Positions 8,585-24,938 of a stretch of DNA of 47,743 bases are shown piece after piece. Position numbers and translations under genes: made by a program. Numbering within the stretch: position 1 is the first letter of the stretch; the number at the start of each line of letters is the position of its first letter. The DNA comes from Actinomycetota bacterium. GTDB lineage: Bacteria; Actinomycetota; Rubrobacteria; Rubrobacterales; Rubrobacteraceae. The stretch covers positions 1-47,743 of the forward strand of contig CADDZK010000001.1 of assembly GCA_902812425.1 (NCBI GenBank). Reading direction: 5' to 3'. The notes beneath the pieces are model-generated. The model saw nothing but the letters and a program-made list of their open reading frames with translations. It did no database searches and was not told the origin of the DNA.

Positions 8585-9555
8585 TGAGCTCCCCGATGTC
8601 TGATGGTGCCGCAGGGAACGCCACGGTGGCGAACTTCCGTGGATCAGACACCTGGCCCAACTTCTTCATCGTCGGAGCGGCCAAGAGCGGTACCACGTCG
8701 CTCTACCATTACCTTAGCCAGCATCCCGACGTATACATGTCACCCAATAAAGAGCCGCACTGGTTCTCCAGGATACCGGACGTTCCGGGACGCGGCTCCC
8801 ACCCTGTCGCCTCGGAGGAGGAGTACCTGAGGCTCTTCAAGGGACGGACCAGCGAGGCCGCCGTGGGAGAGGCCAGTCCCTCGTACCTGTGGGACGAACT
8901 CGCTCCCCACCGCATCTTTGATGCGGTCCCGCAGGCAAAGATCGTCGCGATCCTGCGCAACCCCGTGGAGCGGGCGTACTCCCACTACATGATGGATGTC
9001 CGGGCCGGTAAGCAGGACCTAACTTTCGCTGAAGCACTGGAGCGAGACCAACGGGCGGAAATCAAGGGCTGGGGCGTCTCCGACCAGTACATAGACCTAG
9101 GCCTCTACGCCGCGCAGGTGCAGCGTTACCTGGAGACGTTCGGCAGTGCGCGGGTCAAGGTTTTTCTCTACGAGGAGCTAATCCGGGACCCGAGGGCGCT
9201 TCTGAAAAGCGCCTTCGGATTCCTTGACGTGGAGCCGGGCTACGCTGAAAAGATCCGGACGGATGTCCATTACAACAAGTACTCGGTTCCGAAGAACCGG
9301 CTGGCTAGGAACGTTCTCGCCTCCGGGCTGTTCCGGTCCAGGCTCTCCAGAGCCCTCAGGGCGAGGATCATCCCCAACCACCAGGTCAGGGCGCAACTCC
9401 GCCAATCGCTGCTCTTCAGAGAAGGCGCCAGGTCCACGATGGATGCCGACTCCAGTGGATTCCTGATGGACCTGTACCGGACCGACATCCAGAGGTTGCA
9501 GGAAATGTTGAACCGCGATCTGAGCCACTGGCTGCGAGCAAGAGATGAGAGCTAG
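8584..9555 (+). CDS. Sulfotransferase 1 (PAPS-dependent)
   Basis: 323 aa. The N-terminal FIVGAAKSGTTSLYHYL (about 28-44) is the 5'-phosphosulfate loop, and RNPVERAYSHYMMD (about 125) is the 3'-phosphate site with the conserved Arg and Ser. Length and layout fit the bacterial Sulfotransfer family (NodH / heparan-sulfate N-sulfotransferase type). It transfers sulfate from PAPS to an acceptor, most likely a glycan given the flanking glycosyltransferases. The GTG at 8584 overlaps the previous stop and has GGGAGG 7 nt upstream; ATG 8596 is the alternative start. The end overlaps the next sulfotransferase gene by 11 bp. The acceptor sugar cannot be read from sequence. Confidence 0.92.
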   Translation: MSSPMSDGAAGNATVANFRGSDTWPNFFIVGAAKSGTTSLYHYLSQHPDVYMSPNKEPHWFSRIPDVPGRGSHPVASEEEYLRLFKGRTSEAAVGEASPSYLWDELAPHRIFDAVPQAKIVAILRNPVERAYSHYMMDVRAGKQDLTFAEALERDQRAEIKGWGVSDQYIDLGLYAAQVQRYLETFGSARVKVFLYEELIRDPRALLKSAFGFLDVEPGYAEKIRTDVHYNKYSVPKNRLARNVLASGLFRSRLSRALRARIIPNHQVRAQLRQSLLFREGARSTMDADSSGFLMDLYRTDIQRLQEMLNRDLSHWLRARDES

Positions 9556-10612
9556 CCCGGCAGAGAAGCCCGGCGTCCAGGCGCCCGCGGATCTGCGCGA
9601 GAGGGGTCCCATATTCGTTGTCGGCAACAGCCGCAGCGGCACCACCATGGTGGGCCGCGTGCTCGGCCAGCATCCTGAAGTCTTTACTTTGGGTGAGATC
9701 CACTTCTTCGAGCAATTGTGGTCAGCGCCGGATGGGGAACGCAGCATCTCCAGGTCTGAGGCCGTGAGCCTCGCCGCCCGTCTGCTGTGTATCCAGAGAG
9801 ACGGATATCTCAATCAGGGCCGCCGGGAGCGTTTCTACGGAGAAGCCGAGCGACTACTCGCCTCCCTGCGGCCTAGAGACCTGTTCCCTGCGAAAATCTT
9901 CGAGGCTTTCCTGGTCTCGGAAGCGGAGAAGAACGGGAAAACGGTCCCTTGCGACCAGACTCCCCGCAACGTCTTCTACATCGGAGAGATACTGGCCCTC
10001 TATCCGGAAGCGCGGGTCATCAGCATGGTGCGCGACCCGCGAGATGTCCTCTTATCCCAGAAGCGGAAGTGGAAGAGACGTTTTCTGGGAGCCGACGACA
10101 TACCGTTCAGGGAAGCTGTTCGTTCCTGGGCCAACTACCACCCGATCGTCATCTCCAAGCTGTGGAACGCTTCCACGAGAGCGGCCGGGCGCCACGCCGA
10201 CGACCCCAGGGTGCATCTGCTGCGCTTTGAAGACCTCGTCAACGACCCGGAGTGCGCCATACGACAGGTGTGCGAGTTCGCCGGACTGTCCTTCGAGGAA
10301 AACATGCTGCACGTCCCCCAGGTCGGTTCATCCAGCGGGCTCGACCATCCCGAACAGCGAGGCATAAACAGAGACAGAGCCGGGAGTTGGAAAAGAGGAG
10401 GGCTCAGTTCGACGGAGATATACCTGTGCCAGAAGATTAGCGGCGGCCCGATGCGGCGTTTCGGCTACCTCCTGCTGACGCCATGCCGCCCGAACGCTAC
10501 GCGGTTGTTCGCGAGTCTGGTCTCCTTTCCGGCAAAGCTGGTCTTCGCGCTGCTCCTAAACCTCGGGAGGATGAGGAACATCCAAGAGACGATCAAGAGG
10601 CGCCTGTCATGA
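9545..10612 (+). CDS. Sulfotransferase 2 (PAPS-dependent)
   Basis: 355 aa. The phosphosulfate loop is IFVVGNSRSGTTMVGRVL (about 23-40), and the 3'-phosphate region is VRDPRDVLLSQKRKWK (about 162-177) with conserved Arg, Asp and Ser. It is clearly diverged from its neighbours, so it is not a recent duplicate and probably acts on a different position or sugar. The start overlaps sulfotransferase 1 by 11 bp and the stop forms an ATGA overlap with sulfotransferase 3: one tightly coupled operon. The C-terminal stretch near 310-340 is hydrophobic and may associate with the membrane. Cytosolic action on lipid-linked glycan is likely. Confidence 0.92.
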   Translation: MRASPAEKPGVQAPADLRERGPIFVVGNSRSGTTMVGRVLGQHPEVFTLGEIHFFEQLWSAPDGERSISRSEAVSLAARLLCIQRDGYLNQGRRERFYGEAERLLASLRPRDLFPAKIFEAFLVSEAEKNGKTVPCDQTPRNVFYIGEILALYPEARVISMVRDPRDVLLSQKRKWKRRFLGADDIPFREAVRSWANYHPIVISKLWNASTRAAGRHADDPRVHLLRFEDLVNDPECAIRQVCEFAGLSFEENMLHVPQVGSSSGLDHPEQRGINRDRAGSWKRGGLSSTEIYLCQKISGGPMRRFGYLLLTPCRPNATRLFASLVSFPAKLVFALLLNLGRMRNIQETIKRRLS

Positions 10613-11601
10613 TAGCCCAATTGGATCCCCTCTACATCAAGACCAGGCCGGCCAAGGTGGTCCCACGCCTTATCAGCTACGCCCTGTTCGAGGGGCGTCC
10701 TCTTACCACGAAAGGGCAGTGGATCAACCCTCTGGTCTTCGCTCATTTCGCCCTCGAGATGCGCCTGCCACAACTGAGGGAAATAGAGAAGCCCGTCTTT
10801 ATCGTGGGAACGGGCCGAAGTGGCTCGACCATACTGGGCGTCCTGATGTCTATGCACCATGACGTGGGCTTCCTGAACGAACCTAAGGCGTTGTGGCAGG
10901 CCGTTTACCCTCACGCCGACGTCTCCGGCCAGTACTCGCATGATCTATCACGCTACCGACTGTACGAGAGCGACGCCACGGAGGCGGTGCGCCGCAGGGC
11001 CCGGCGCCTGTTCGGAGCATATCTGCGGGCTGTGGCGAGCAAGAGAGTAGTCGACAAGTATCCCGAGTTGATCTTCCGTGTGCCTTTCGTCAAGGCCATC
11101 TTTCCCGACGCGCGATTCATCTTCCTCATCCGCAACGGCTGGGACACCTGCAACTCCATCGAGCACTGGTCCGAGCGCAAGGGCGTCCGAAGAGCGAAAG
11201 AGAACCACGACTGGTGGGGAGCTGACAACCGCAAGTGGCGCGTAATGCTGGAACAACTCGTGCCTACGGAAGAAAGCCTGTCGGGGGCCGAAGGCGTGAT
11301 CCGAGGGTACGACCGCCACAGAGACATGGCGGTCGTAGAGTGGATCATCACCATGCGTGAGGGACTGCGACAGTTGGATCGCTACGCGGACTGCATCCAC
11401 CCGCTTCACTACGAGTCGCTCGTCAGCAACCCCCGTGATGAGTTGAGCAGGCTGCTGGATTTCTGTGAATTGCCGCACGACAAGGTGTTCCTGAGGTTCG
11501 GGGAGCAGGAACTCTCTCCGGCTCCCGAGAGCGAACCTTTCGACATGCATCCGGCCATCCGCCCCGCCTTCAACGAGACGATGAAAGCTCTGGGATACTG
11601 A
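10609..11601 (+). CDS. Sulfotransferase 3 (PAPS-dependent)
   Basis: 330 aa. The phosphosulfate loop is VFIVGTGRSGSTILGVLM (about 63-80). RFIFLIRNGWDTCNSIEHW (about 166-184) holds the 3'-phosphate binding Arg and Ser in a less usual form (RNGWDTCNS rather than RNPxxRAxS). An ATGA overlap with the preceding gene fixes the start at 10609; in-frame sequence further upstream is a shadow of sulfotransferase 2. Three adjacent, divergent sulfotransferases imply a polymer sulfated at several positions. No PAPS synthesis gene is in the window, so the donor must come from elsewhere. Confidence 0.9.
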   Translation: MIAQLDPLYIKTRPAKVVPRLISYALFEGRPLTTKGQWINPLVFAHFALEMRLPQLREIEKPVFIVGTGRSGSTILGVLMSMHHDVGFLNEPKALWQAVYPHADVSGQYSHDLSRYRLYESDATEAVRRRARRLFGAYLRAVASKRVVDKYPELIFRVPFVKAIFPDARFIFLIRNGWDTCNSIEHWSERKGVRRAKENHDWWGADNRKWRVMLEQLVPTEESLSGAEGVIRGYDRHRDMAVVEWIITMREGLRQLDRYADCIHPLHYESLVSNPRDELSRLLDFCELPHDKVFLRFGEQELSPAPESEPFDMHPAIRPAFNETMKALGY

Positions 11602-11602
11602 G

Positions 11603-12775
11603 GTGCGAGCAGATGAACCGGCAGGTATGAAAGCCGCGGTCATCGAGCCCGTGGGGGGGCACGGCGGCATGGACTACTACGACTTCGGCCTCTGCGCGGG
11701 GCTCTCTGAAGCCAAGGTGGACGTCACGCTCTACACATGCGACGAGACCCCTGTCAAGACCGCCGTCCCGTACACGCTGCGGTTCCCCTACCGGCGGATA
11801 TACGGTGACGCTCCCACCTGGCTGAGGGGAGTCCGCTACGTACGGGGCAGTGTGGGGGCGCTGCTGCGCGCGAAACTGGGCGGGACACAGGTCGCGCATT
11901 TCCACTTCTTTCACGTGGGGCCGCTGGAACTCTTTAACGTGGCGCTCGCGAGAGCGTTGGGGCTCCGGGTAGTCGTCACCGCCCACGACGTGCGGTCTTT
12001 CGTCGAGCGGTTGTCGGTCCCGTGGATGGTCCAGAGAGCCTACCGGCTCGCGCATCGGGTGATCGCGCAGAGCGAAGTCGCCGAGAGAGAGTTGGGAACG
12101 AGGTTGCGAGTGCCCGCGCACAAGATGACCGTGATCCCCCACGGCAACTACCTGCATGTCATCGATGAAACGCCGGCGAGAGAAGAGGCTCGACAGCGCC
12201 TCGGCCTATCGAGTGAAGGTGGAGTGTTGCTCTTTTTCGGACAGATCAAGGAGGTCAAGGGCCTCGATATTCTTCTGCGCGCCATGCCCAGACTCATCAG
12301 GGAGCGACCGGATACGATCCTCATCATCGCCGGAAAGGTGTGGAAGGACGACTTCGAGAGCTACCGGAGGCAGATCGACGCCCTTCGCATATCCGACAAC
12401 TGCGTCCTCGATATCCGCTTTATCCCCGACCACGAGGTAGCGAGCTACTACGCGGCGGCCGATGTGGTTGTGTTGCCCTACCGCAGGATCTACCAGAGCG
12501 GCGTACTCCTAATGGCCATGAGCTACGGAAGACCGGTCATGGTCTCCGACATCGAGGGGATGACCGAGGTCGTGTCGGACGGGGAGAACGGGTACGTGTT
12601 CCCTGCGGGCGACGCTGAGGCTCTGGCCGAAAGGCTTATCGAGGTGATGGCGAGACCCGAAGAGTTGCGTCGGGTCGGGGCGAGCGCTCTCTCGCACATG
12701 CGTGAGCACCACGGATGGGACACGATCGGCGATTTGACGGCAGCATGTTATCGCGCGGCCCTGAAGGCCGGATAG
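11603..12775 (+). CDS. GT4-family glycosyltransferase
   Basis: 390 aa from GTG 11603; ATG 11627 is an alternative start because its MKAAVIEP is a typical GT-B beginning. The GT-B fold is shown by the N-terminal half with HFHFFHVGPLELF and VTAHDV, and the C-terminal Glycos_transf_1 half with LLFFGQIKEVKGLD, SGVLLMAMSYGRPVMVSD and GENGYVFPAGDAEAL. It transfers a sugar from an NDP-sugar donor with retention, in the cytosol, on the growing repeat unit. It begins 1 bp after the sulfotransferase 3 stop and is followed within 3 bp by the next glycosyltransferase. Confidence 0.93.
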   Translation: MRADEPAGMKAAVIEPVGGHGGMDYYDFGLCAGLSEAKVDVTLYTCDETPVKTAVPYTLRFPYRRIYGDAPTWLRGVRYVRGSVGALLRAKLGGTQVAHFHFFHVGPLELFNVALARALGLRVVVTAHDVRSFVERLSVPWMVQRAYRLAHRVIAQSEVAERELGTRLRVPAHKMTVIPHGNYLHVIDETPAREEARQRLGLSSEGGVLLFFGQIKEVKGLDILLRAMPRLIRERPDTILIIAGKVWKDDFESYRRQIDALRISDNCVLDIRFIPDHEVASYYAAADVVVLPYRRIYQSGVLLMAMSYGRPVMVSDIEGMTEVVSDGENGYVFPAGDAEALAERLIEVMARPEELRRVGASALSHMREHHGWDTIGDLTAACYRAALKAG

Positions 12776-12777
12776 TT

Positions 12778-14010
12778 GTGGAGTCCCGGAACCGTATGAA
12801 CGGGAGGATGGTGGCTTTCTGCGGCACCCGCGGTGTGCCAGCCAACTACGGCGGGTTCGAGACCGCCGTGGATGAGATCAGCCAGCGCTTCGTCGAGAAC
12901 GGTTACGCTTGTGCGGTCTTCTGTCGGGAGTCATCCAGCGACGAGATGCTCGAGTACCATGAAGGACGTCGGTTGATCTACGTAAATGGCAGTTCCCATC
13001 GCGCCCTCGACACCTTCGTCTCTGCGTTCCAGACTGGATGTCACCTGCTGCGCAACCGCAAGGATTACGGTCACGTCTTCTGGTTCAATAACGCCAACCT
13101 CCCAGGCATCCTGCTGACATTGCTGGCCCGCATCCCGACCTCGGTCAACACTGATGGTATGGAGTGGCGTCGGGCAAAGTGGAGATGGCCCTTCAAAGCC
13201 TACTACCTGCTGGCTTCATTCCTGATCTCTCTTCTCTGCCGAGGTGTGATCTCCGACTCGAAGGCTATGCAGTCTTTCTACAAGAAGGCTTTCGGTAGGG
13301 ACACCGAGTTCGTCCCATACGGCGTTCCCCGGACACCGGTGGTGTCGCCGCACGAAGAACCGGAGATCCTGGAGAGCTACGGGGTGGCACCCGGTCGCTA
13401 TTTCCTGCAGATCACACGTTTCGAGCCGGATAACTTGCCGCTCCACGCGGCTAGAGCATTCAAGGCGGCCCGTCTTGCGGAAGACGGGTTCAAGCTCCTA
13501 TTAATAGGATACAAGCATGGGTCTTCCTACGCCGAAGAGATCAAGTCCATGTCCGGCGAGAGCGGCATCATGGTTGCCGGGGCTGTCTACGATCCCAAGG
13601 TTCTGTCCGTGTTGCGGGAAAACTGCTTCTGCTATGTACACGGCAACTCCGTCGGAGGGACGAACCCGGCTCTGCTGGAGGCCATGGCGACGTGCCCTAG
13701 GGTGCTCGCCATCGAGGGGCCGTTCAGCAGGGAGGTGTTGGGTGACGAAGGACGCTACTTCGCGCCGGATGCCATGGTTGGAGCCCTCCGCGAAGCTGTG
13801 AGCTATCCGGAGAACTCAGCGGCCATGCGAGAGCGCGTCCGTTCCCGATATCAGTGGTCCGCAGTCGCGCGATCATATATCAATCTGGCGGAGGGCATGC
13901 CGGCCAACTACTCGATCTCGCGGGTGAGCCCGGAGTTGGTGACTCCCAGAAAGATACCGAGGTCGCCGTCCCGAGAACCGAACGCGGCGGATGTCGAGAG
14001 GGGAGCCTGA
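12778..14010 (+). CDS. DUF1972-type GT4 glycosyltransferase
   Basis: 410 aa from GTG 12778; ATG 12796 and ATG 12808 (the latter touching GGGAGG) are alternatives. The start MVAFCGTRGVPANYGGFET is the signature of the DUF1972 N-domain found in rhamnosyltransferase-like enzymes. The C-terminal half has GVPRTPV, TRFEPDNLP, YVHGNSVGGTNPALLEAM and EGPFSREVLGD as the donor-binding region. It probably adds rhamnose or a similar sugar, but the donor cannot be fixed from sequence. The final 35 residues are Pro/Arg-rich and look disordered. The stop forms a TGATG overlap with the next gene. Confidence 0.9.
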   Translation: MESRNRMNGRMVAFCGTRGVPANYGGFETAVDEISQRFVENGYACAVFCRESSSDEMLEYHEGRRLIYVNGSSHRALDTFVSAFQTGCHLLRNRKDYGHVFWFNNANLPGILLTLLARIPTSVNTDGMEWRRAKWRWPFKAYYLLASFLISLLCRGVISDSKAMQSFYKKAFGRDTEFVPYGVPRTPVVSPHEEPEILESYGVAPGRYFLQITRFEPDNLPLHAARAFKAARLAEDGFKLLLIGYKHGSSYAEEIKSMSGESGIMVAGAVYDPKVLSVLRENCFCYVHGNSVGGTNPALLEAMATCPRVLAIEGPFSREVLGDEGRYFAPDAMVGALREAVSYPENSAAMRERVRSRYQWSAVARSYINLAEGMPANYSISRVSPELVTPRKIPRSPSREPNAADVERGA

Positions 14011-15395
14011 TGGAGGACACGCGCAAGGGAGACCTGTTTCGAGATGTCGTCGAAACGCTGGAACGGGCGGGCCACGATCTGTGCATTCTGCACGGATACG
14101 AAGACTACCCGGAGCGCATCAGGTCCGATATAGACGCAATCTCCCGGAACCCTGAAGAGATCCCGCGCATCCTGTCCGAGGATGGAGCTGTCTCGGTGAT
14201 CCAGGTAATAGACACCCAGCCTGCAGCCGCACTGTGGCTTGCTCTGTTCAGGTGGTACGACGGTGAGCCCGTGATAATCCGGCTTCACGTCTTTCGCGGC
14301 GACTACCGCATCGACGGAAGGGTATTCTTTGAAGGTGAGGAGTTTCTGGGCAACTGCCGCGATTACAAATTCTTCAAGGTGCCCCCGCCGGCCCTGGAGT
14401 TCGCCGCCTACCTGGTCAAGCGAACGGCGAAGGGATCTCTTGATGAAGAGCAGGGTAGCCTGTTGAGCAGGCGGTACACCGAGGACCCAACCTCATGCCA
14501 ACAGTACCTGGCCCGTCTCTTGCCGGAAGACGAAGCCACACTCGTCGCAGAGGCTGCGAGGACCGAAAGCTGGGAAACCGTGCGTGCCCGGTCCGGAGAA
14601 CTCTACCTGCACATGGCGAGCCGGGTCGCCAGCGAGCGGCCCGTAGCCGTGCTGTGGAACCGCCTGGGAGACAAACTCCAGAAGCTCGGGCGCGCGATCC
14701 GTCCTCCTGGCCTCATGGTGGCTTTCCTTGGCGTGGACGGCGCGGGCAAGAGCACGGTAATGGCGCACTTGGAGCGAAATCTTGCCCCGGCCTTCTGGTC
14801 GACGAGTCGCTATCACGGCCGCGCGCTGGAGTCGCCCTTGCGCTGGACGAAGCGCGTCCGCGCTCAGCGCCAGCTCAGGGACCAAGAGATCAAGAGCGCC
14901 GCCAGCACGAACACAGCGCTTCCCACTCGGGACCCGCACAATAAGTCTTCACGCGGTCTCGCGCTCTCCCTCTTGAAGCTGGCTCTCTGGTGGGCGGACT
15001 TTACATTACTGGGCTATGTTCGAGACATCTACCCGAACCTGCGACGCGGCGCACTGGTGCTGTTCGATCGCTACTATCAGGATCTGCTGGTGGACCCCAG
15101 GCGCCACCGTTATGGAGGACCGTTGTGGGTGGCCCGATTCGCCGGACGGTTCTTCCCCCGTCCCCAACTCACCATCCTCCTCGACGCCCCGCCAGAGGTG
15201 CTTCACTCGCGTAAACAGGAGGTCTCGTTCGAAGAGACGTCCAGGCAGCGTGAAGCCTACCTTCGGTTGGTTAAGGAACTACCAACCGGCCACGTGGTGG
15301 ACGCCTCAAGGCCCGTCGCCGCAGTCGTCGCGGAGACCGAGAAGATCCTTCTGGAACACCTGGCTACCCGCGAGGCCCGAAAACTTAAGGCATAG
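14010..15395 (+). CDS. Nucleotidyltransferase-like / thymidylate-kinase-like fusion
   Basis: 461 aa. ATG 14010 overlaps the previous stop. The N-terminal part (about 20-130) contains LCILHGYEDYPERIRSDIDAI, which resembles a minimal nucleotidyltransferase (acidic SDID pair). The C-terminal part (about 235-455) is a P-loop kinase: Walker A GVDGAGKSTV (241-250), a DRYYQDL motif and a LILLD-like strand before a lid region, as in thymidylate kinase. Such fusions occur in polysaccharide loci and are not the essential dTMP kinase; the substrate is unknown and may be a sugar or lipid intermediate. It is the last gene of the 7505-15395 operon and meets the GH5 gene tail to tail 47 bp later. Confidence 0.8.
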   Translation: MEDTRKGDLFRDVVETLERAGHDLCILHGYEDYPERIRSDIDAISRNPEEIPRILSEDGAVSVIQVIDTQPAAALWLALFRWYDGEPVIIRLHVFRGDYRIDGRVFFEGEEFLGNCRDYKFFKVPPPALEFAAYLVKRTAKGSLDEEQGSLLSRRYTEDPTSCQQYLARLLPEDEATLVAEAARTESWETVRARSGELYLHMASRVASERPVAVLWNRLGDKLQKLGRAIRPPGLMVAFLGVDGAGKSTVMAHLERNLAPAFWSTSRYHGRALESPLRWTKRVRAQRQLRDQEIKSAASTNTALPTRDPHNKSSRGLALSLLKLALWWADFTLLGYVRDIYPNLRRGALVLFDRYYQDLLVDPRRHRYGGPLWVARFAGRFFPRPQLTILLDAPPEVLHSRKQEVSFEETSRQREAYLRLVKELPTGHVVDASRPVAAVVAETEKILLEHLATREARKLKA

Positions 15396-15442
15396 AGACG
15401 ACGGCCCGAGGACGTACCGGACGCGCTCGCGGAAGTCGTCGT

Positions 15443-16747
15443 TCAGTAGCCCTGAGAGGCATAGTAGGCGTTCTCGTCATCGTAGCTTATGGGGTAGTCG
15501 CCGCCTCCGCCATCCGTGCGGGGGTCGTAGTGATCGAAGTAGTGGTGCGCGGTGTACATGATGTCTCCGCCGCCGGTTATCCATGGTCCCGCGTGCTTGT
15601 CTGAAACCTTCGGCACGGGAGCGTAGGTCGGCACCATTATCTTCTTTGTGTCACCCCGACGCCGGATAGCTTTGACGACTCTCCGTGTGGCCGCTTCCCA
15701 CGCCTTCGTCGGCGAGGCGAATTTGCCGGCGGCTACCCCACCGTGGTTGTAGGGCTCGTTCATCAGGTCGTAGGCTACTACCTCGGGGTGATCCTCGAAG
15801 TGAAGGCTGAGTTTCCGCCAGACGTCCTCCATCGCCGAGATGGGCAGCGCCGCGGTGTTCAAGGCCTTCCGGCCCGAGTTCGTACAGTAGCCACCGTAGT
15901 TGTGCAGGTCGATTATGACCTGTACGCCCGCCTCCCTGGCGTGGATGAGGGCGATGCGGAAGCGTTTGAGTTCGGTAGTCGAGAGCGGGCTGTTCAGTTT
16001 CGGCTGTATTCTCTCCCACCGCAAACCAAGACGCACCAGCTTGACGCCGCGGCTAGCTAGGTAACCGAACGAGTCAAGACCGGTGTTCGGGTCTATCCTG
16101 TTCGAACCGTCCGTCGGGTACCAGTAATCCTTGTTGTAGACGCCCGGGTTCGCGTTGCTCATACTGTACTCTTCAAACTTTTGCCCGCCGCTGAAGTTCA
16201 CACCGCGGCCGGTACCTGCGTGGGCTTCAATGAGCGCAGAATGGAAGCCGGCGCGGTTGATCACCTTGTGTGTGTCGTCGCCGGAGGCCAGGTATATGCT
16301 CGCGTAGTAACCGCCGTTCTTCAGATCGTAGTAGCGTTCGGATGCCTCCTGTGCGGTCACCCAGAGCCCAGCGCTATCGCAGCGGGAGTAGTATTCGCCA
16401 CCCATAGTCTTCCACTGCATCTGATCCGGGTAGAAGGGCTCTCGTTGCGCACCGAGGTTGGAGGGAAAGCCGACCTCACCGATGTAGCCCCTCGCGGTTC
16501 CAAGCCAGCTTATGAAGTTGTTCAAGCCCTCGAGAGCGTTGTGCGTTACGGCATCCTGGTACCCACCGTGCAAGAGTGTTCCGGTGTACTCTGTTACCCT
16601 CGGTTCTCTATTTGTACCTAGAGCCACAACCCCGAGCCCAGCGAGCGCCATCATGCCGAGGAACTCTTGACGGCTTAACGATTTCCCGGTAAGCAGTTTT
16701 CTCCCGAACTCGCCCCGACCCTCGTGAAGACCGATGTAGCGATGCAT
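15443..16747 (-). CDS. GH5-type glycoside hydrolase, apparently circularly permuted
   Basis: 434 aa. ATG 16747 sits 2 nt after an AGGGGGG site just below the c-di-GMP riboswitch; longer frames are riboswitch sequence. Residues 22-44 form a hydrophobic export signal with SRQEFLG, Tat-like but with one Arg. GH5 landmarks are present in an unusual order. The GYIGEVGFPSN segment (87-97), which looks like strand 7 with the nucleophile (E91), and GLWVTAQEA (127-135), like strand 8, come first. Then RGVNFSGG (181-188, strand 1), VRLGLRWERIQP (238-249), IIDLHNYGG, YDLMNEP (326-332, acid/base E331) and MYTAHHYFD (397-405). The protein ends soon after strand 6. It probably cuts a beta-glucan or the locus's own EPS outside the cell. 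Family confident, substrate unknown. Confidence 0.85.
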   Translation of the reverse strand: MHRYIGLHEGRGEFGRKLLTGKSLSRQEFLGMMALAGLGVVALGTNREPRVTEYTGTLLHGGYQDAVTHNALEGLNNFISWLGTARGYIGEVGFPSNLGAQREPFYPDQMQWKTMGGEYYSRCDSAGLWVTAQEASERYYDLKNGGYYASIYLASGDDTHKVINRAGFHSALIEAHAGTGRGVNFSGGQKFEEYSMSNANPGVYNKDYWYPTDGSNRIDPNTGLDSFGYLASRGVKLVRLGLRWERIQPKLNSPLSTTELKRFRIALIHAREAGVQVIIDLHNYGGYCTNSGRKALNTAALPISAMEDVWRKLSLHFEDHPEVVAYDLMNEPYNHGGVAAGKFASPTKAWEAATRRVVKAIRRRGDTKKIMVPTYAPVPKVSDKHAGPWITGGGDIMYTAHHYFDHYDPRTDGGGGDYPISYDDENAYYASQGY

Positions 16748-16760
16748 TTCCCCCCCTGTT

Positions 16761-16827
16761 CGGCAGCCCGGCCGCCTCAAAGAGACCCGTTGGCTTTGCG
16801 TACCCATCTCACGATGGGGCTGCCTTT
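16761..16827 (-). promoter_or_regulatory. Cyclic di-GMP-I (GEMM-I) riboswitch
   Basis: Read on the minus strand: AAAGGCAGCCC opens P1, CCCATC-GTGA-GATGGG is a hairpin with a GNRA tetraloop, ACGCAAAGCC is the invariant joining segment, CGGGTCTC...GAGGCGGCC forms the second hairpin, and GGGCTGCCG closes P1 as the exact complement of GGCAGCCC. These are the hallmarks of the c-di-GMP-I aptamer. The aptamer ends about 7 nt before the AGGGGGG ribosome-binding site of the GH5 gene, so control of translation initiation is most likely. It ties the glycosidase to c-di-GMP level. Confidence 0.93.
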
Positions 16828-16829
16828 GT

Positions 16830-17197
16830 CGCTGCGAGGGCCGTGCCAGCGGCCGCATCGCCTATTCGATAAAATTCTACCATATTCGTCGCTGCCTAAA
16901 CTAATCCAAAATAAGAGCTTGCGGCTGCGAGCAAGACTCCTCAGCGATCCCGTGGTAGGCGCAGCCGAACACTAAAACCTGGACGGGCTACTTGAAGACC
17001 ACTCGGTCGGGTGCGCGCTGGCAGTGGCACCCTGGCGAATGATCCACCTCCCTTGCGCGCAAGCCGGGCTGCAAACTGCTGCCAGATAGGCTTGACGATG
17101 TATGGTGGGACCGCGGGCACCGGCAGACCCCTTCTTGGGAAGCGTCCAGATCTCCCCGAATGATCCAGCAGCCTGTACACTATCCAGTATCAGGACA
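16830..17197. other. Intergenic stretch with possible transposase remnant
   Basis: No intact gene. On the minus strand around 17060-17110 a short frame reads VPPYIVKPIWQQFAARL, which resembles the N-terminus of IS5-like transposases. It breaks down within about 30 codons, with the next recognisable words in other frames. I treat it as a decayed insertion-sequence fragment, with low certainty. The AT-rich run 16860-16920 probably holds the riboswitch promoter. Confidence 0.4.
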
Positions 17198-17218
17198 AAA
17201 TATGCCACATGGCAGACG
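17198..17218 (+). promoter_or_regulatory. EPS-box palindrome, copy 4
   Basis: Reads AATATGCCACATGGCAGACG from 17199, with a perfect TGCCA-CA-TGGCA core. It lies 64 bp before the small reading frame at 17282 and upstream of the Wzz-like / kinase pair. Confidence 0.72.
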
Positions 17219-17281
17219 TAGCTATCCTACCCGCCCGATAACATCTTTTTGTTGAGTGCTAAGCGAAAGGAGCTCTTACGT

Positions 17282-17419
17282 ATGCGCGGAGCTCGGCCGG
17301 ACGATCACAAGGTGACGAATGTGAACCTCTATTCCTCCAACGGACATCTGCGCGATGAGGTTCCCGCCAGAGTCGGGCTCGGTTGCACAATCACTCACAC
17401 GTCATGGTTCGGGCGTTGA
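17282..17419 (+). CDS. Small ORF (45 aa) ahead of the Wzz-like gene
   Basis: It encodes 45 residues beginning MRGARPDDHKVTNVNLYSSN. AGGAG at 17268-17272 is 9 nt before ATG 17282, a good ribosome-binding site. The EPS-box lies 64 bp upstream, at the same spacing as for other genes, so this is likely the first coding frame of the transcript. There is no membrane segment and no known family. It could be a small protein or a leader peptide for the wzz-like gene 83 bp downstream. Coding status is unproven. Confidence 0.45.
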   Translation: MRGARPDDHKVTNVNLYSSNGHLRDEVPARVGLGCTITHTSWFGR

Positions 17420-17501
17420 GGAGAAGACCCAGCGTCCAGGCGAAAACGGTAAGATATTGACGCCTTCATCGTCCTGAGACAGGAGCGAAAGTGAACTACA
17501 C

Positions 17502-18299
17502 ATGGCAACTAATAGAAAGGACTTCGTCGCGATGAGCCACGAACCAAGGCTTGATGCCCTGTCGAGAGGAGCCCACGAAGGAGATTACATCCTCTCACTA
17601 GCAGATATCCTGCGGGTGCTCTTGCGACGCTGGTGGATAATAGCATTGTTCACGATCGCAACCCTCGGAGTTGCCGTCGGGTATAGCTACTTTCAGACGC
17701 CGAAATACGAAGCTTCTACTACGATACTGATCGGTCAGACTCAGAATAACACCAGTACATCGTCCACGTCCAACCTCTCGGCGAGCGATCTTCAGGGGCT
17801 TCAGACCCTGACAACAACGATGGCGGCGGCCATAACGAGCGACCGGATAGCCGCGGCTGTCATACAGGACCTGAACCTGTCGATAGCGCCGGAAGATCTC
17901 CTGAAAAACCTGAGCGCGCAGCAGGTCCCCGAAACCCAGTTCATCCAGATCACCTACCAGAGTGCCCACCCCGAGATGGCCAAGCGCGTAGTAGATGACA
18001 CGGGGCATCAGTTCTCCAGTCAGGTATCCGAGATCAGCCCGAACGCCAGCGGGGTGACCGCCACGATCTGGGATAAGGCGGCGGTCTCGGAGGAACCCGT
18101 GAGCCCCAACCGGTCTCGGGACGCGCTCCTGGGCTTCGCGGTGGGGGCGATGCTGGGCGTGCTCCTGTCGTTCTTGTTGGAGAACCTGGACAAAGGCTGG
18201 CGGTCGATCGAGGAGATAGAGCGAGCTTCCGGGTTACCCGCCCTCGGCGTCATTCCCAAGTTTGACCCTCCCAGGGACAAGAGCAGGAAGCGAGGTTAG
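17502..18299 (+). CDS. Wzz-like chain-length determinant / polysaccharide co-polymerase
   Basis: 265 aa from ATG 17502. ATG 17532 has the better ribosome-binding site (AAAGGA, 10 nt away) and may be the true start. Layout is that of the Wzz/CapA family: cytosolic N-tail, first membrane helix (about 44-63), an extracytoplasmic coiled domain with the PKYEASTTILI strand, a Pro-rich EEPVSPNRSRD motif and a second membrane helix (about 208-228), then a short cytosolic tail. It sets glycan chain length with the polymerase and normally needs the tyrosine kinase domain encoded next. The first loop (about 76-95) is Ser/Thr/Asn-rich. It is 4 bp from the kinase-like gene. Confidence 0.9.
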   Translation: MATNRKDFVAMSHEPRLDALSRGAHEGDYILSLADILRVLLRRWWIIALFTIATLGVAVGYSYFQTPKYEASTTILIGQTQNNTSTSSTSNLSASDLQGLQTLTTTMAAAITSDRIAAAVIQDLNLSIAPEDLLKNLSAQQVPETQFIQITYQSAHPEMAKRVVDDTGHQFSSQVSEISPNASGVTATIWDKAAVSEEPVSPNRSRDALLGFAVGAMLGVLLSFLLENLDKGWRSIEEIERASGLPALGVIPKFDPPRDKSRKRG

Positions 18300-18303
18300 G
18301 ATT

Positions 18304-19026
18304 ATGGGATCTCAGCTAAAACGTCGGGCCCGCACGGAGGTGGCGAAGGACGATTTCTCCGGGCGGCTGGCGACCCTCGACGATCCAGCGGGCCGCGCTT
18401 CCGAAGCCTACCGCTCGCTGCGTGCGAGCCTGCTGCGCACCCTGACGATGGCGCCTCCGGCGGTGGTCGTGTTGACGAGCCCCGGTCCCAGCGAGGGCAA
18501 GAGCACCACCTGCGCCAACCTGGGAGTGGCGCTCGCCCAGGCGGGTTACAAGACCCTCATAATGGACTGTAACCTGCGCACTCCGCTCCTGCACAAGGTC
18601 TTCGGTCTGTCCAACTCCTACGGCCTGGTGGACGTGCTGACGAACGGGCACAGCCTGCAAGACTTGCTGCGGGAACCGCCGCTTGCGAACCTGAATATCG
18701 TGACTGCCGGGCCTATACCTCCCAACCCGACGGAATTGCTGGGCTCCAGGCGGTTTTCGGAGGTCGTCAGAGAAGCACGAACGCGGTTCGACTATGTGCT
18801 TCTCGACTCCGCACACCTGCTGGCGGCGGGACCGCCTTCCATCGGAACCTTCGCAGATCCTCTCGAGCTAGCCTCTCGGGCTGACGGCGTCTTGCTTGTC
18901 CTGGACGCGCAGGACACCACCAGAGATGCTTTAAGACGCACCATGCATACCCTAGAGAGCGCTGGATCCAGTATCCTCGGTCTCGTCGTGAACAACGTCG
19001 AGCCCACTAGGCGGGGGCTTACGTGA
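18304..19026 (+). CDS. BY-kinase-like CpsD/CapB ATPase
   Basis: 240 aa, start ATG 18304. Walker A is SPGPSEGKSTT (59-69), Walker A' is LIMDCNLRTP (85-94; the usual DADLRRP has become DCNLRTP) and Walker B is YVLLDSAHLL, where most members have LDTPP. The N-terminal SEAYRSLRASLL matches the activator-contact helix of BY-kinases. The tail ends VEPTRRGLT without the tyrosine cluster used for autophosphorylation, so it may be an ATPase partner of the Wzz-like protein, not a canonical tyrosine kinase. It acts at the cytosolic face of the membrane. Confidence 0.87.
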   Translation: MGSQLKRRARTEVAKDDFSGRLATLDDPAGRASEAYRSLRASLLRTLTMAPPAVVVLTSPGPSEGKSTTCANLGVALAQAGYKTLIMDCNLRTPLLHKVFGLSNSYGLVDVLTNGHSLQDLLREPPLANLNIVTAGPIPPNPTELLGSRRFSEVVREARTRFDYVLLDSAHLLAAGPPSIGTFADPLELASRADGVLLVLDAQDTTRDALRRTMHTLESAGSSILGLVVNNVEPTRRGLT

Positions 19027-19107
19027 CCCTTCCCGCCGGGAAGCGATGTCAGAGGAGCACCGTAAAGGCAGATTCCGCGAACGGCCCGGGCACCGCTTTT
19101 TACGCGA

Positions 19108-19128
19108 GAATGTGCCATCTGGCAGATG
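19108..19128 (+). promoter_or_regulatory. EPS-box palindrome, copy 5
   Basis: Reads AATGTGCCATCTGGCAGATG from 19109, the best overall match to the consensus: ATGTGCCA and TGGCAGAT on either side of TC. It lies 66 bp before ATG 19194. Confidence 0.78.
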
Positions 19129-19193
19129 TAGAAGACCGCCAAGGTCATCATACTGTACTTAGTAACCAAATTTGTTTGATGGAGGCGAGAAGA

Positions 19194-19490
19194 ATGAACA
19201 AGAGCATCGTTACGCCCGTGGCTACACGTCTAGTCCTGCTGCCTTTGTCGATGCTCGTCCTAGTTCTGGGTCGGGCCGCGGCCGCATTCGCCGATACTCC
19301 CTTCGGCTCGCAGTATGGGAACCCCGCAGACCCCGCAAAGGACGCGGGCGTCGGACATCTGCTGGGAGGTATTGAGGGCGTGCTGCCCTCTACCGGCGGA
19401 CCGCTACTCTACCTGGCGCTACTGGGTGTTGTGTTGCTCTGCTGTGGTTCTGCTCTGCTTGTGCGGCGGGCAATGACTAGCCGCCGATAG
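19194..19490 (+). CDS. Tiny LPSTG sortase-anchored surface protein
   Basis: 98 aa. ATG 19194 has GGAGG 8 nt upstream; longer frames run into the EPS-box. The N-terminal signal peptide is residues 1-33 (AFA-like cleavage). A mature segment of about 30 residues follows, then LPSTG (64-68), a hydrophobic helix (71-90) and the tail RRAMTSRR: a complete sortase sorting signal. The exposed part is so short that it may act as a pilin-like subunit, spacer or glycan acceptor on the wall; that role is inference. No sortase gene is in the window. It is followed 42 bp later by the ligase-TPR gene and probably co-transcribed from the EPS-box promoter. Confidence 0.82.
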   Translation: MNKSIVTPVATRLVLLPLSMLVLVLGRAAAAFADTPFGSQYGNPADPAKDAGVGHLLGGIEGVLPSTGGPLLYLALLGVVLLCCGSALLVRRAMTSRR

Positions 19491-19532
19491 CCCAAAACGC
19501 TATCGGGTTCGACCAGCCCTCTTCCGAACTCG

Positions 19533-21563
19533 ATGCAGTACTCATCTAGGGAGGCTGCTCTCGGGTCCGATCTCCGGAGCGTGACCACGCCATCGAGTTC
19601 AAAGGTGCCGGTGTTCCGGCACCCGAGCTCTCACCCGAGCTCTTTTTCGGGAAGACGGCGCCGCGTGGCGCCGAGCCTAGCGCTGGTTGCCATAGTGCTG
19701 CTCGTCTCGTGGATGGGTGTCGCCGAGGGAGGCTACTTCCTCGGTGACTGGGCCCCCCTCGCCCTGTCGCTCGCCACACTCATGTTCGCGGTCTCGCTTG
19801 CTGGCTGGCCACCCATCCCAAGGTCCAGGGTAAGCATCGTGGCAACGGGCCTCTTCGCCCTGTACGCGGTATGGACTTTCCTCTCCCTGCTGTGGACGCC
19901 GGACCGGGGGGCGGCCTGGCTCGGTGCGGCGCAGACCCTATTTTATCTGCTCGTCTTCTGGATCAGTATCGGCCTGGTCTCGCGCGGAGCATCGCGCAGG
20001 TGGCTAGTTCTTGCTTCGGTTCTCTGCCCGGCTGCTGTCGCGGTGTCTACCGCGCTCATACTGGTCCCGCTTCTAGGGGAGCTCTTTGATAGGAACCGGC
20101 TGCTTGGAAGCGTCGGCTACTTCAACGGTGAGGCCGCTTTTCTGCTCGTTCCTTTCTGGGCAGCCATCTACCTTGCCGGCTCGCGGCGCACAAACCCTAT
20201 CGTCCGCGGCCTGATACTCGCCGGGGCGGTACCGGGCAGCGCCCTCATCATCCTGACTCAATCTCGTGGCGCTATGTTGGCTTTGGTCGTCTCGTCTTTC
20301 GTATACTTCCTGCTCTCGTGTCAGCGGCTGCGTGGTCTGTTGGTCCTCGCGCCAATTGCGGTGGCGGTGTACCTCAGTTTCCCGGGACTCAACAACGTCT
20401 ACCTTGAGTTCGTGCACGGCGGAGACCCTGCATCGGCGCTGAACCGGGCCTTGCCACTAGTCTGGCTCGCCACTGCCGGAGCCGGCCTCTTCGGTCTTCT
20501 CTGGGGGCTCGTGGACGAGAGGTGGAAGCCATCTACCGGCACCGTGCGCGCCGCCGGGACCATCGTGGTGGCTGGCGGCTTGGTAGCTCTCTCCCTCGGA
20601 GCTTACGTATCGTACGAGCGAACCGGCGAAGGTCCTCTGACCAGGGGCCAAGAGAAATGGGGAGCCTTTGTGGCCAACGATAAGGCAGGACAGGAGCAGA
20701 GCCGCTACCTTAGCGTCTCCGGCATGGGACGGTACACGTACTGGCAGGTGGCCTGGGAAGACTTCAGCACGCATCCCATCCTTGGCATCGGGACGCAGAA
20801 CTATCAGCAGACTTACTATCGGCTGCGCACGGAGCTAGCCGGCTCCGTTCGGCAGCCACACTCCCTACCTCTCGAGATACTCGCCGAGCGAGGCGCGGTC
20901 GGGGGGACGCTGTTTCTGGGGTTTCTGATCACTTGTCTCGTGGCCGGATCGTGGCGGGGGTTAAGACGGCTGGATGCCGAAGACAGGGCGCTCACCGGGG
21001 CTTTGGCAGCCTCAGTCATCTACTGGCTCGTTCACTCCAGCGTCGATTGGTTCTGGCAGATACCGGCCGTGACGCTGACGGCGATCCTGTACCTCGCGAT
21101 GCTCGCGGCCCCATGGAGCGCGACTCCGTCAGAGGCGGCACCCGCCCGCTGGTCCCTGCGTCTGTGCGGGGCCACGCTCGCCGCTGTGATCATAGTCGCC
21201 GTGGCCCCGCTCTACATCGCCGACCGTTACCTGACGCAGAGCTACGCTGCGGAAGACCCGCGAACGGCTCTAGCCCTGGTCGCGAGAGCAGAGACGTTCA
21301 ACCCCGTGGACCCATATCTGCCGCAACACGAGGCCGAGCTGGCCGTGCGCATAAAGGACTGGCCCCGCGCCACCCAGGCCTACGAGCGTTCCATAGAGTT
21401 GAACCCCCGCAGCTACGTGCCATACGAGCTAATGGCCTCCTATTACGAGCGCAGGGGAGATGCCAAGAAGGCACTCTCGTTGTATCACGAGGCTTCTTCT
21501 CTTAACCCACTCGCAAGTGACGTGCGCCGCGACGTCGTACGGATGGAGCGCCAGACGCGCTAG
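19533..21563 (+). CDS. O-antigen ligase/polymerase with C-terminal TPR
   Basis: 676 aa. A cytosolic basic N-tail (1-47) is followed by about 12 membrane segments (50-560). The large external loop carries HPILGIGTQNYQQTY and QPHSLPLEILAERG, the Wzy_C/WaaL signature with its conserved His and Glu. Residues about 575-670 form two to three TPR units (TALALVARAETFNP, ATQAYERSIELNP, KKALSLYHEASSLNP). This O-antigen ligase plus TPR layout is known in Gram-positives and protein O-glycosylation systems; the TPR may recruit the acceptor protein. It is the second family member in the window. Its last codon is 15 bp from the convergent flippase gene. Confidence 0.9.
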   Translation: MQYSSREAALGSDLRSVTTPSSSKVPVFRHPSSHPSSFSGRRRRVAPSLALVAIVLLVSWMGVAEGGYFLGDWAPLALSLATLMFAVSLAGWPPIPRSRVSIVATGLFALYAVWTFLSLLWTPDRGAAWLGAAQTLFYLLVFWISIGLVSRGASRRWLVLASVLCPAAVAVSTALILVPLLGELFDRNRLLGSVGYFNGEAAFLLVPFWAAIYLAGSRRTNPIVRGLILAGAVPGSALIILTQSRGAMLALVVSSFVYFLLSCQRLRGLLVLAPIAVAVYLSFPGLNNVYLEFVHGGDPASALNRALPLVWLATAGAGLFGLLWGLVDERWKPSTGTVRAAGTIVVAGGLVALSLGAYVSYERTGEGPLTRGQEKWGAFVANDKAGQEQSRYLSVSGMGRYTYWQVAWEDFSTHPILGIGTQNYQQTYYRLRTELAGSVRQPHSLPLEILAERGAVGGTLFLGFLITCLVAGSWRGLRRLDAEDRALTGALAASVIYWLVHSSVDWFWQIPAVTLTAILYLAMLAAPWSATPSEAAPARWSLRLCGATLAAVIIVAVAPLYIADRYLTQSYAAEDPRTALALVARAETFNPVDPYLPQHEAELAVRIKDWPRATQAYERSIELNPRSYVPYELMASYYERRGDAKKALSLYHEASSLNPLASDVRRDVVRMERQTR

Positions 21564-21578
21564 TAACACGCCCGAACT

Positions 21579-23138
21579 CTAGCTACCGCGGGCGGCGCGG
21601 GCGCGCAGCTTGGTCGTCCCCTGCTGGAGGGTCTCCCACAAAGGAGTCAGGAACTTGCGGTCGCTCGGACTCAGTCCCACAGCCAACAGCAGTATCGCAA
21701 ACAGTGCCACGAACAGAGAGCTGAAAACGAGTACGGTGGGTATTGGGGAGGAGAATGAAAACTCCAATCTCGCCAGATAAACGCCCATGGCGGCAAGGGT
21801 CCCTGCGGCGATTGGCCTCACGTACTCGCGGCTGTAGGGCCAGAATCCCAGTAGCCGCCGGACGGCCAGGAGGCTGATGGCGTTCATCAAGAATATCGCG
21901 GCCGCCGTGGCGATGCCCGCGCCGAGAGCGCCGTACATCGGGACCAGAACGAAGTTCGCCGCTACGCCGATCACGGCCGAGCCCGCCGTCGCCATCATCA
22001 GCACGGTCTGGTGGCGGGTCATGGCCAGCATACGCTGGGTGGGCCCGACCGAGGAGTTGAATAGCTGGGCCACGGCTATGGCGACAAGTACCACCCATCC
22101 GGAGACAAACTGAGGACCAATTATCTGCAGTATGTCTCTGCCCAGTAGTATGGTGATCAGGAAGATCGCGAACGCACCAGTGAAGACCCACCGGGAGACA
22201 TCCTGGTAGAGGCGGCTGAGATCTTCCATGAGGTTCTTCCTGTAGAGGCTGGAGATGATCGGGGAGAATATCCCGTTGAACGCGAAGAGCACCAGCGCCG
22301 AGAGCATCGCCGTGCGGGCAGCGGCGTTGTAGATACCCACCGCACTGGCCGTCGCGAAGATGCCGAGCACGGTCACCGCAGTCCAACTGTTGATACGCTG
22401 CGTAACGTTGGAAATGATCAGGGGCCAGGAGTGATTAAACAGCTTTCTGGTCTCGAACGCGGTGGAACTATTCCTGTCCGTCAGCTTGGGGAACATCCGC
22501 TTCAAGTAGTACAGAGCCGCGAGAGAGCCGACCACGGTGGAGATAACGTAGGCGAACGCCGCTCCCATTATGTCGGCCCCGAGCAGGTAGAAGACCGCTA
22601 TGAGAACGAAGCTCACCACGGGCTGTATGACCTGCTGCACGTAGATCAGGTACTTGACGGTCTTGAATCCCACCGTGGCGTAGAGGGCCATATTCATCAC
22701 GGTCAGGAACGGCAGTGAGACCGAGAAGACCTTGAAGATAATCTCCAGAGGTGGCTTATGGAAGACTTCGCCGGCGAGAAAACCCGCGTTGAAGAAGATC
22801 AGGGCTGCGATCACCACGCTCAACGCGAACGGGGCGAAGAGGGCCATCAAGATAGTGCCGCGCACCCTGGAAGCGTCCTTCTCGGCCCTGTAGTAAGCCA
22901 CGTAGCGCACAACGCCGTTGTCCATCCCGAACTGGGACAAGACGTTTGTAAGCTCGACCAGCGTGATCGCGAGTACATAGAACCCGAGCTGCGCAGGGCC
23001 GTACATCCACGCCAGAGCTACCTGGGTAGCGTAGGTGAAGATCCGTCCCAGCCCCTGGCCCACGAAGCTTATCCCGGCTCCGCGGGCGATCCTGCTTACA
23101 TGAGCATCGTAGTGCTCTTTGTCGGGATGAGTACTCAA
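21579..23138 (-). CDS. Wzx-like polysaccharide flippase (MOP superfamily)
   Basis: 519 aa with about 14 hydrophobic segments, starting with RIARGAGISFVGQGLGRIFTY, the typical opening of the Polysacc_synt / MOP exporter group. It flips lipid-linked repeat units to the outer face for the polymerase. The apparent start is TTG 23138 with a weak upstream site. It lies 25 bp after the 68-aa gene and follows the priming sugar transferase in the same orientation, so priming, the small protein and flipping are probably one operon. Confidence 0.92.
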   Translation of the reverse strand: MSTHPDKEHYDAHVSRIARGAGISFVGQGLGRIFTYATQVALAWMYGPAQLGFYVLAITLVELTNVLSQFGMDNGVVRYVAYYRAEKDASRVRGTILMALFAPFALSVVIAALIFFNAGFLAGEVFHKPPLEIIFKVFSVSLPFLTVMNMALYATVGFKTVKYLIYVQQVIQPVVSFVLIAVFYLLGADIMGAAFAYVISTVVGSLAALYYLKRMFPKLTDRNSSTAFETRKLFNHSWPLIISNVTQRINSWTAVTVLGIFATASAVGIYNAAARTAMLSALVLFAFNGIFSPIISSLYRKNLMEDLSRLYQDVSRWVFTGAFAIFLITILLGRDILQIIGPQFVSGWVVLVAIAVAQLFNSSVGPTQRMLAMTRHQTVLMMATAGSAVIGVAANFVLVPMYGALGAGIATAAAIFLMNAISLLAVRRLLGFWPYSREYVRPIAAGTLAAMGVYLARLEFSFSSPIPTVLVFSSLFVALFAILLLAVGLSPSDRKFLTPLWETLQQGTTKLRARAARGS

Positions 23139-23163
23139 CTATCGTCTCGTCTTCTCTACCGGG

Positions 23164-23370
23164 CTAGCCCGTATACCTCAGCGCCCCGGACTCCGAGGGG
23201 GTCTCCTCTGCCACGAAGAAAGTATCAGGCTTGATGGGGAATACCACCCTGACCTCGCTGCCCGAATAGCGGGCGTTGGTGATACGCAAGGCCTGCTCGA
23301 TGCTGTCGGCCCGTACCGTCACCCGGAAACCGGCATCTTCCGGGCCGACCTCAACTGATACCCTGATCAA
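23164..23370 (-). CDS. 68-aa conserved-looking small protein
   Basis: 68 aa, TTG start behind a GGGAG/GAGG stretch. It reads as a compact alternating beta-alpha-beta sequence (MIRVSVEVGPEDAGFRVTV, then a helix with EQALRITNARYSG and a strand VRVVFPIKPD). No membrane segment or cysteine. I do not recognise the family. Because it sits between the priming transferase and the flippase with short gaps, it may be a small accessory or regulatory subunit of the export step. Codon use and composition look genuinely coding. Confidence 0.7.
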   Translation of the reverse strand: MIRVSVEVGPEDAGFRVTVRADSIEQALRITNARYSGSEVRVVFPIKPDTFFVAEETPSESGALRYTG

Positions 23371-23447
23371 GAACCTCTACTCCCAGATCTCTCGGCTTCA
23401 TGGTGGAAGGGCGATACCCAGCGTATTCGAGCAGGCGTGCTGAAGTC

Positions 23448-24938
23448 TCAATAGGCGTCCTTCCTGCTCATAAGGCACCGAACGGTGCGGAAGAGGAGCA
23501 CGAGGTCCAGCCATACTGACCAGTCGCGCACGTAGCGGGCGTCCATATCCACCCTATAGGCGAAGGAGGTCCCGTTGCGTCCGGATACCTGCCACGGACC
23601 CGTGATCCCCGGGAGGACCCGCAGGATCTCGCCCTGAGTAGCCCCTATGTCATCGGACTCGCGAGGCAGGTATGGTCGGGGACCGACCAAGCTCATCTCT
23701 CCGCGCAGGACGTTCCATAACTGCGGCAACTCGTCCAGGCTCGTCTTCCGCAACAGCCTCCCCACCCGCGTGACGCGCGGATCGTCGCGCAGCTTGTGGT
23801 ACTTCATATACTCTTCTCTCGCCGCTGCGTCTTCCCTGAGCAACCGCCGCAAGGCGTCCTCGGCGTCAGGCACCATAGTCCTGAACTTGATGCAAGGGAA
23901 CAGCTTGCCGTCGCGTCCCAACCGCTGGTCCGCATAGAAGATAGAACCACCGGATTCCGCCCACACGAGCAACGAGAGCACCGCGATGAGAGGGAGTGCG
24001 AAGATCCCCCCCGCCAGCGTCGCCGCCAGGTCGAGCGTACGCTTGAGACGCTGCGCCCAGGGGTTCAGCAGGTTGTGCTCTACTTCGACCCCGAAGGTAC
24101 CTGCGAAGTCCCTGGCCACTACTGCAGAGTTGGTGATGCCTTCCAGGTTGGGGATCACCACGATATGCCGGAATGTGTCGCCGAAAAGGCTCACGAGCCT
24201 CGCCAGGCGCTCGCGTCGCACGTAGGGCATGGCGAAGATGGCCGTCTCTATACCGCGTTGCTTGGCCGCGCTAATGGCGTCAGCCAGGGTACCGCCGTAA
24301 GGGACGCCCTCGACCTCGCCCTCCGCCGGGGTCAGATGGTTATCGAAGACGCCAATCGGTCTGAGCCCGAGCTGCCACTCCCTGCGCAAGGCCCTCAACA
24401 CGCGGGCTCCCGCTTCATGGGCGCCGAGCACGACGACCGGCTTCCCCCACACGCCCATCCGCATCAGCATGTACTTGACCCCGTAACGCGCCACGGGCGC
24501 CGCTAGCAACAGGCCGAAGGAACTTCCGAAAAGCATCAGCCGGGAGAGCGTGTCGTCCGCGTGGAAGGCGAGCGCGAAAACCGCGGTGATGGCCAACGTG
24601 GTGAGCAAGGCAAGTGTCTGCCGCCGCAGCTCATCTATTTGTCCCATCCCATAGCCGGGGTAAAGACCCGATAATCCACGCAGGCCAACCCATGCGACGA
24701 CGTATGGGAAGAAGCCCACGACAGAGACGATCGACAGCTGGCCATGGCCGAGAACCTGCTGTACGGCGAAGAATATCTCCCAGACGACAGTCGCAAGCAA
24801 AACGTCGGCGAGCACAAGAGTGGGGATCACTATCGCCTGACCCACTAGCCCTTTGACCTGGCGCCTCGCCGCGCCCGCGTGCATTGTTCCTGGTGTTGGG
24901 GCCGGCTGTGCGACCTTGGCCTCCATAGTGCTAGACAC
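23448..24938 (-). CDS. Polyprenyl-phosphate sugar-1-phosphate transferase (WbaP/WcaJ type)
   Basis: 496 aa from GTG 24938 (AGGAGG 11 nt upstream; ATG 24926 is an alternative). Four or five N-terminal membrane helices (about 30-165) are followed by a CoA-binding-like domain (VVVLGAHEAGARVLRAL, about 165-290). The catalytic bacterial-sugar-transferase domain (about 300-496) has KRTLDLAATLAGG, FPCIKFRTMVPDAED, LRKTSLDELPQLWNVL and GEMSLVGPRP. It loads the first sugar phosphate on undecaprenyl phosphate and so commits the pathway. The EPS-box lies 71 bp upstream, placing the committing step under the shared operator. Confidence 0.93.
   Translation of the reverse strand: MSSTMEAKVAQPAPTPGTMHAGAARRQVKGLVGQAIVIPTLVLADVLLATVVWEIFFAVQQVLGHGQLSIVSVVGFFPYVVAWVGLRGLSGLYPGYGMGQIDELRRQTLALLTTLAITAVFALAFHADDTLSRLMLFGSSFGLLLAAPVARYGVKYMLMRMGVWGKPVVVLGAHEAGARVLRALRREWQLGLRPIGVFDNHLTPAEGEVEGVPYGGTLADAISAAKQRGIETAIFAMPYVRRERLARLVSLFGDTFRHIVVIPNLEGITNSAVVARDFAGTFGVEVEHNLLNPWAQRLKRTLDLAATLAGGIFALPLIAVLSLLVWAESGGSIFYADQRLGRDGKLFPCIKFRTMVPDAEDALRRLLREDAAAREEYMKYHKLRDDPRVTRVGRLLRKTSLDELPQLWNVLRGEMSLVGPRPYLPRESDDIGATQGEILRVLPGITGPWQVSGRNGTSFAYRVDMDARYVRDWSVWLDLVLLFRTVRCLMSRKDAY

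Follow-up and report, generated by a model that had tools for sequence, protein, structure and literature searches.

The gene at 15443..16747 on the minus strand of the window (the whole stretch of 47,743 nucleotides that was analysed) encodes, close to certainly, a GH5 barrel whose parts are circularly permuted, and the best explanation of the evidence overall, with high confidence, is that its product is a naturally circularly permuted GH5 enzyme that appears closest to the GH5_5 endoglucanases. GH5 is among the largest of the glycoside hydrolase families. Domain searches see the permuted proteins as GH5 fragments without a nucleophile, they are therefore easily mistaken for broken enzymes.

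The gene and the order of its parts

Two in-frame starts are available to the ORF, ATG 16747 which gives 434 aa plus stop, and ATG 16858 which gives 471 aa, with the stop codon at 15445-15443 on the minus strand. A GGGGGG Shine-Dalgarno-like run at 16756-16750 precedes ATG 16747, whilst ATG 16858 is without one. Residues are numbered here along the 471-aa ORF; the original prediction counted from 16747, so that its E91 and E331 are E128 and E368 here. Towards the N terminus there is a Tat-like export signal (KSLSRQEFLGMMALAGLGVVALG) at 16613..16690 on the minus strand. The relatives L002, L004 and L005 carry SRRRF or SRREF as part of Tat-type export signals, in the window protein the motif reads SRQEFL with the second Arg of the relatives' SRRxFL replaced by Gln, and the twin arginine thus seems, as far as the sequence goes, to have been lost.

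The remainder of the protein falls into two segments. The N-terminal segment, residues 103-215 (16214..16552, minus strand), comprises GH5 helix 6, strand 7, helix 7, strand 8 and helix 8, and corresponds to the C-terminal third of a normal GH5. The C-terminal segment, residues 216-471 (15446..16213, minus strand), comprises GH5 strands 1-6, with the protein terminating in YASQGY directly after strand 6. The order of elements by BLAST, profile and predicted structure is helix 6-beta7-beta8 and then beta1 to beta6, so instead of the standard GH5 order of beta1 to beta8 the strands run 7-8-1-2-3-4-5-6, and the protein is therefore a permuted variant of GH5 and not a standard member. That strand 7- and strand 8-like parts come first had been the central claim of the original prediction, and it is borne out by the agreement of swapped profile matches, BLAST and the AlphaFold2 prediction, with GYIGEVGFP in the N-terminal part and MNEP in the C-terminal part as it had described. 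Its further suggestions, of new ends between strands 6 and 7 and of natural termini joined to one another, also hold: sequence, profile and predicted structure place the cut point in the loop from strand 6 to helix 6, and the joined termini at about residues 212-217 of the 471-aa ORF (175-180 in the earlier numbering).

It is apparent from Pfam why the order is easily overlooked. PF00150 matches the window protein with 82.8 bits against a curated cut-off of 23.5, covering residues 266-442 and profile positions 29-197 of 272, that is strands 2-6 only, and the profile end that bears the nucleophile is absent from the C terminus of the protein. The curated cut-off is exceeded in all 24 of the 24 permuted members, and the matches to NCBIfam are weak only, to endoglycoceramidase I and GH1 models.

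An independent profile of 314 positions was built from 27 normal-order GH5 proteins, all of them non-actinobacterial, and matches every one of 23 permuted proteins twice with the order swapped, the N-terminal piece at ~220-304 of the profile and the C-terminal piece at ~3-220. The N-terminal pieces score 1.4-55 bits, as against no more than 0.7 bits for 460 controls with shuffled N-terminal parts and values below 0 for reversed sequences. The original prediction had reasoned that a plain truncation would be without the nucleophile segment, and a match to the nucleophile strand is indeed present N-terminally, unlike in the shuffles. Against this profile the N-terminal piece of the window protein alone scores a weak 5.6 bits, the case for permutation therefore rests on the family.

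The family can also be mapped onto L058, a normal-order GH5 from Modestobacter sp. VKM Ac-2982, to which each of 19 permuted proteins gives two swapped BLAST matches, the C-terminal piece at ~155-389 and the smaller N-terminal piece at ~392-492, with E down to 6e-20 for the latter. As the pieces abut in L058 (389/392), little or nothing has been lost or duplicated. A swapped order is also found with phmmer against the PDB, in which the nucleophile region of XacCel5A (4w7u) is aligned to window residues 109-133 as a second, sub-threshold stretch.

Active site and predicted fold

A profile of 24 permuted proteins (A3) was searched against the PDB and matched RBcel1 (4ee9) twice, in swapped order, with 178 bits over chain 5-212 and 39.7 bits over chain 225-295 (i-Evalue 2.5e-9 for the latter). 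In the A3 alignment E245, E135 and Y201 of RBcel1 fall on E128, E368 and Y440 of the window protein. In RBcel1 E245 is the nucleophile and E135 the general acid/base, with the role of Y201 likewise described (PMC8900817). The predicted nucleophile of the window protein is Glu128 of GYIGEVGFP (16475..16477, minus strand) and the predicted acid/base is Glu368 of MNEP (15755..15757, minus strand), both of which are unchanged across 24 of 24 permuted proteins. The window protein also keeps the strand-2 Arg, the strand-3 His, the Asn of NEP, and the strand-6 His and Tyr.

AlphaFold2 run with a 24-sequence alignment gives a confident barrel (pLDDT 88.2, pTM 0.90), an earlier run with 8 sequences was moderate only (pLDDT 71.6). 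In the model, residue 1 of which is residue 83 of the 471-aa ORF, the elements are H21-37, E42-48 (strand 7), H55-80, E84-91 (strand 8) and H125-130, continuing with E136-140 (strand 1) through to E351-358 (strand 6) and H377-386. The position of E128 within the barrel, as had been predicted for E91, is supported by its placement on predicted strand 7 and its alignment with the experimentally identified nucleophile of RBcel1. The other result that would have told against the prediction, a nucleophile at some different place in a GH5 of normal order, did not appear either. Foldseek aligns the model to GH5_5-like enzymes over ~225-267 columns only, mainly the part with strands 1-6, and to RBcel1 over ~245 columns at 2.5 A with a TM of 0.58-0.59 by target length; as Foldseek keeps chain order it cannot by itself show permutation, and a partial alignment is what is expected if one third sits at the other end of the chain.

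One position of the active site departs from the usual pattern. The GH5 strand-8 Trp is otherwise conserved, and the alignment has it in 34 of 34 normal-order rows and 18 of the 23 permuted ones. The window protein has Gln170 in its place (16349..16351, minus strand), and Gln is also found at this position in L003, L004 and L006. Judged from the alignment, the specificity or activity of the window enzyme may differ. The change could be taken further, in that the fold may be permuted whilst the window enzyme is now no ordinary hydrolase and acts as a binding protein or transglycosylase. Such a reading draws on the shared Gln and on L014, a permuted protein from which the strand-2 Arg, the strand-3 His and the NEP Asn are missing. 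However, the window protein retains the two catalytic Glu together with the remaining canonical residues, and the reading is considered rather unlikely. L014 (with L032, genome G073) has MREP in place of the NEP motif and keeps both Glu, from its sequence it is possibly inactive.

Spread and origin of the permuted order

The original prediction had called for a search for relatives with the same order, and a whole actinobacterial clade of them exists, which like the polysaccharide cluster around the gene lay beyond that prediction. Some 25 different permuted proteins were detected, every one from Actinomycetota, including a second permuted gene in the same genome (contig C69) whose product is 39% identical and collinear over residues 71-471. 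When genome contigs were scanned, actinobacterial proteins were found to be collinear with the window protein over ~100-471, with proteins from many phyla matching at ~219-465 only, the latter being normal-order GH5. An assembly artefact is ruled out by the occurrence of the same order in these ~25 proteins, which include isolate genomes (Demequina, Blastococcus, Geodermatophilus and Marisediminicola), as well as on the second contig of the same genome. What is left of a further permuted GH5 gene, broken by several stop codons (L112/L113), lies beside polysaccharide genes in genome G002 (C70:17317-17899).

In a tree built from the sequences after reordering, the 23 permuted proteins group without exception as a single clade (SH-aLRT 96), and L058 is its sister (99). 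A larger tree that adds six normal-order Geodermatophilaceae proteins and L138 places the permuted proteins and L138 in one group (98/99) adjoining the six (100/99), and in a core-only tree without L138 the permuted clade has support of 99/94. The permutation is old and common to the actinobacterial clade, and it probably had a single origin.

L138, which has normal order and comes from genome G405 of the family Geodermatophilaceae, takes a long-branched position within the permuted group. Grouping of the permuted proteins together without L138 is not rejected (p-AU 0.27, and 0.0585 for the core alone). In the middle of its chain L138 reads SLGY-TAGDRP-DALHTRAVAEIDAF, which is the C-terminal end of a permuted protein followed by the N-terminal start of one. 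Going by these features of its sequence, it is possible that L138 is an unpermuted sister or intermediate, or a revertant. A permuted ancestor of L138 that regained normal order would imply two rounds of cutting and reclosing of the GH5 chain at one and the same loop, and this is a doubtful proposition. In L138 (with L161, genome G405) NEP is replaced by GEP and the strand-3 His is lost.

A different origin would be that of a chimera, in which the first third of the protein and the other two thirds derive from two different GH5 genes. For the N-terminal piece the best BLAST partner is an actinobacterial protein in 22 of 23 cases, for the core it is mostly planctomycete or acidobacterial (21 of 23), with core-only support for an actinobacterial sister being weak at 84/52. 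However, when each piece is given its own tree, a branch sets the permuted and the actinobacterial normal-order proteins together apart from the rest, with support of 100/100 (N-terminal piece) and 84/52 (core), the discrepancy in best partners may be an effect of the length of the stem that leads to the normal-order Geodermatophilaceae proteins, and the adjoining breakpoints in L058 fit a single parent. As the two trees agree, descent from two parents is quite improbable. As for a truncated normal GH5 of strands 1-6 joined by chance to an unrelated N-terminal domain and surviving as an inactive remnant, the detection by Pfam of strands 2-6 only would fit, but such an origin is so improbable as to be refuted by the swapped matches of the independent profile beyond the shuffles in 23 of 23 members and the alignment to RBcel1, with an invariant nucleophile Glu in the N-terminal segment predicted to lie within one barrel and the order preserved in proteins from diverse genera.

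The likely route to the natural circular permutation would begin with tandem duplication of a normal gene, followed by fusion of the duplicated copies and then loss of the outer parts. In the permuted enzyme the normal C-terminal third, with helix 6, the nucleophile strand 7 and strand 8, has moved ahead of strand 1, the old ends are joined at about residues 212-217, and the chain now begins and ends within the loop from strand 6 to helix 6. It is predicted to fold still as one closed eight-stranded barrel with the retaining GH5 set of E128, E368, R, H, N, H and Y. At L156 in Modestobacter sp. VKM Ac-2982 (genome G398, C8:276281-278951) there are two tandem normal-order GH5 genes that are 65% identical, an arrangement from which duplication and fusion would have to start, though the pair is suggestive only. 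With living normal-order sisters, among them the two tandem genes and L138 as a possible intermediate or revertant, the route by which a catalytic barrel becomes permuted is directly testable. Furthermore the loop from strand 6 to helix 6 tolerates new ends in GH5, which is useful for enzyme engineering.

The polysaccharide cluster and known systems

By gene content the GH5 gene is surrounded by a Wzx/Wzy-type polysaccharide cluster (5923..24938), which has two Wzy_C, three sulfotransferases, two GT4, Wzz, a P-loop kinase-like protein, a Wzx-like flippase and a priming sugar transferase. The three sulfotransferase-family genes are consecutive at 8281-11598, and from their sequences the trio suggests a sulfated exopolysaccharide. 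Similar cluster genes are found near the permuted gene in three genomes of the same genus (L145, L147, L148, L149). The surroundings of the second permuted copy in the window's own genome (L150) are without any genes of the window's cluster type, and near other permuted members (e.g. Demequina, Microbacteriaceae) no recognisable EPS genes were seen within ~5 kb in comparison with the window's genes, a role in EPS may thus hold for the window's lineage only.

The window enzyme is most likely an exported retaining beta-glycanase or transglycosylase that acts on the polymer of the surrounding cluster, with the chances of an EPS role in this genus judged to be about even. Once exported it would trim or transglycosylate beta-linked EPS chains, in the manner put forward for RBcel1 and Ps_Cel5A, for which a part in cellulose formation has been proposed (PMC8900817). 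The change from Trp to Gln in strand 8 calls for caution in assuming that cellulose is the substrate.

Permutation of a catalytic barrel is not without precedent, as GH70 glucansucrases, compared with GH13, are an established natural case of a circularly permuted barrel among glycoside hydrolases (PMC11046441). They differ from the permuted GH5 in being alpha-glucan families, and GH70 is cut elsewhere, starting at helix 3. The title of a further paper names another permuted glycoside hydrolase, which is not given there as GH5. A permuted GH5 was not found in a search of the open-access literature. The nearest normal-order group in the tree is that of the Geodermatophilaceae GH5 proteins L058, L131-L134 and L142, which include Modestobacter; both permuted pieces match these over their full length, the order in this group being normal.

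The closest solved enzymes by both profile and fold are RBcel1 (4ee9) and Pseudomonas stutzeri Cel5A (4lx4), GH5_5 endo-1,4-beta-glucanases. RBcel1, which is among the best PDB matches by either approach, is named as GH5_5 (PMC8900817), and the probable placement of the window protein near GH5_5 is by these nearest solved enzymes. RBcel1 and Cel5A have the same catalytic E/E/Y as the window protein, whereas the strand order of the latter is permuted and its strand-8 Trp is Gln. The role in cellulose synthesis that has been proposed for RBcel1 (PMC8900817) is comparable with the EPS context of the window enzyme.
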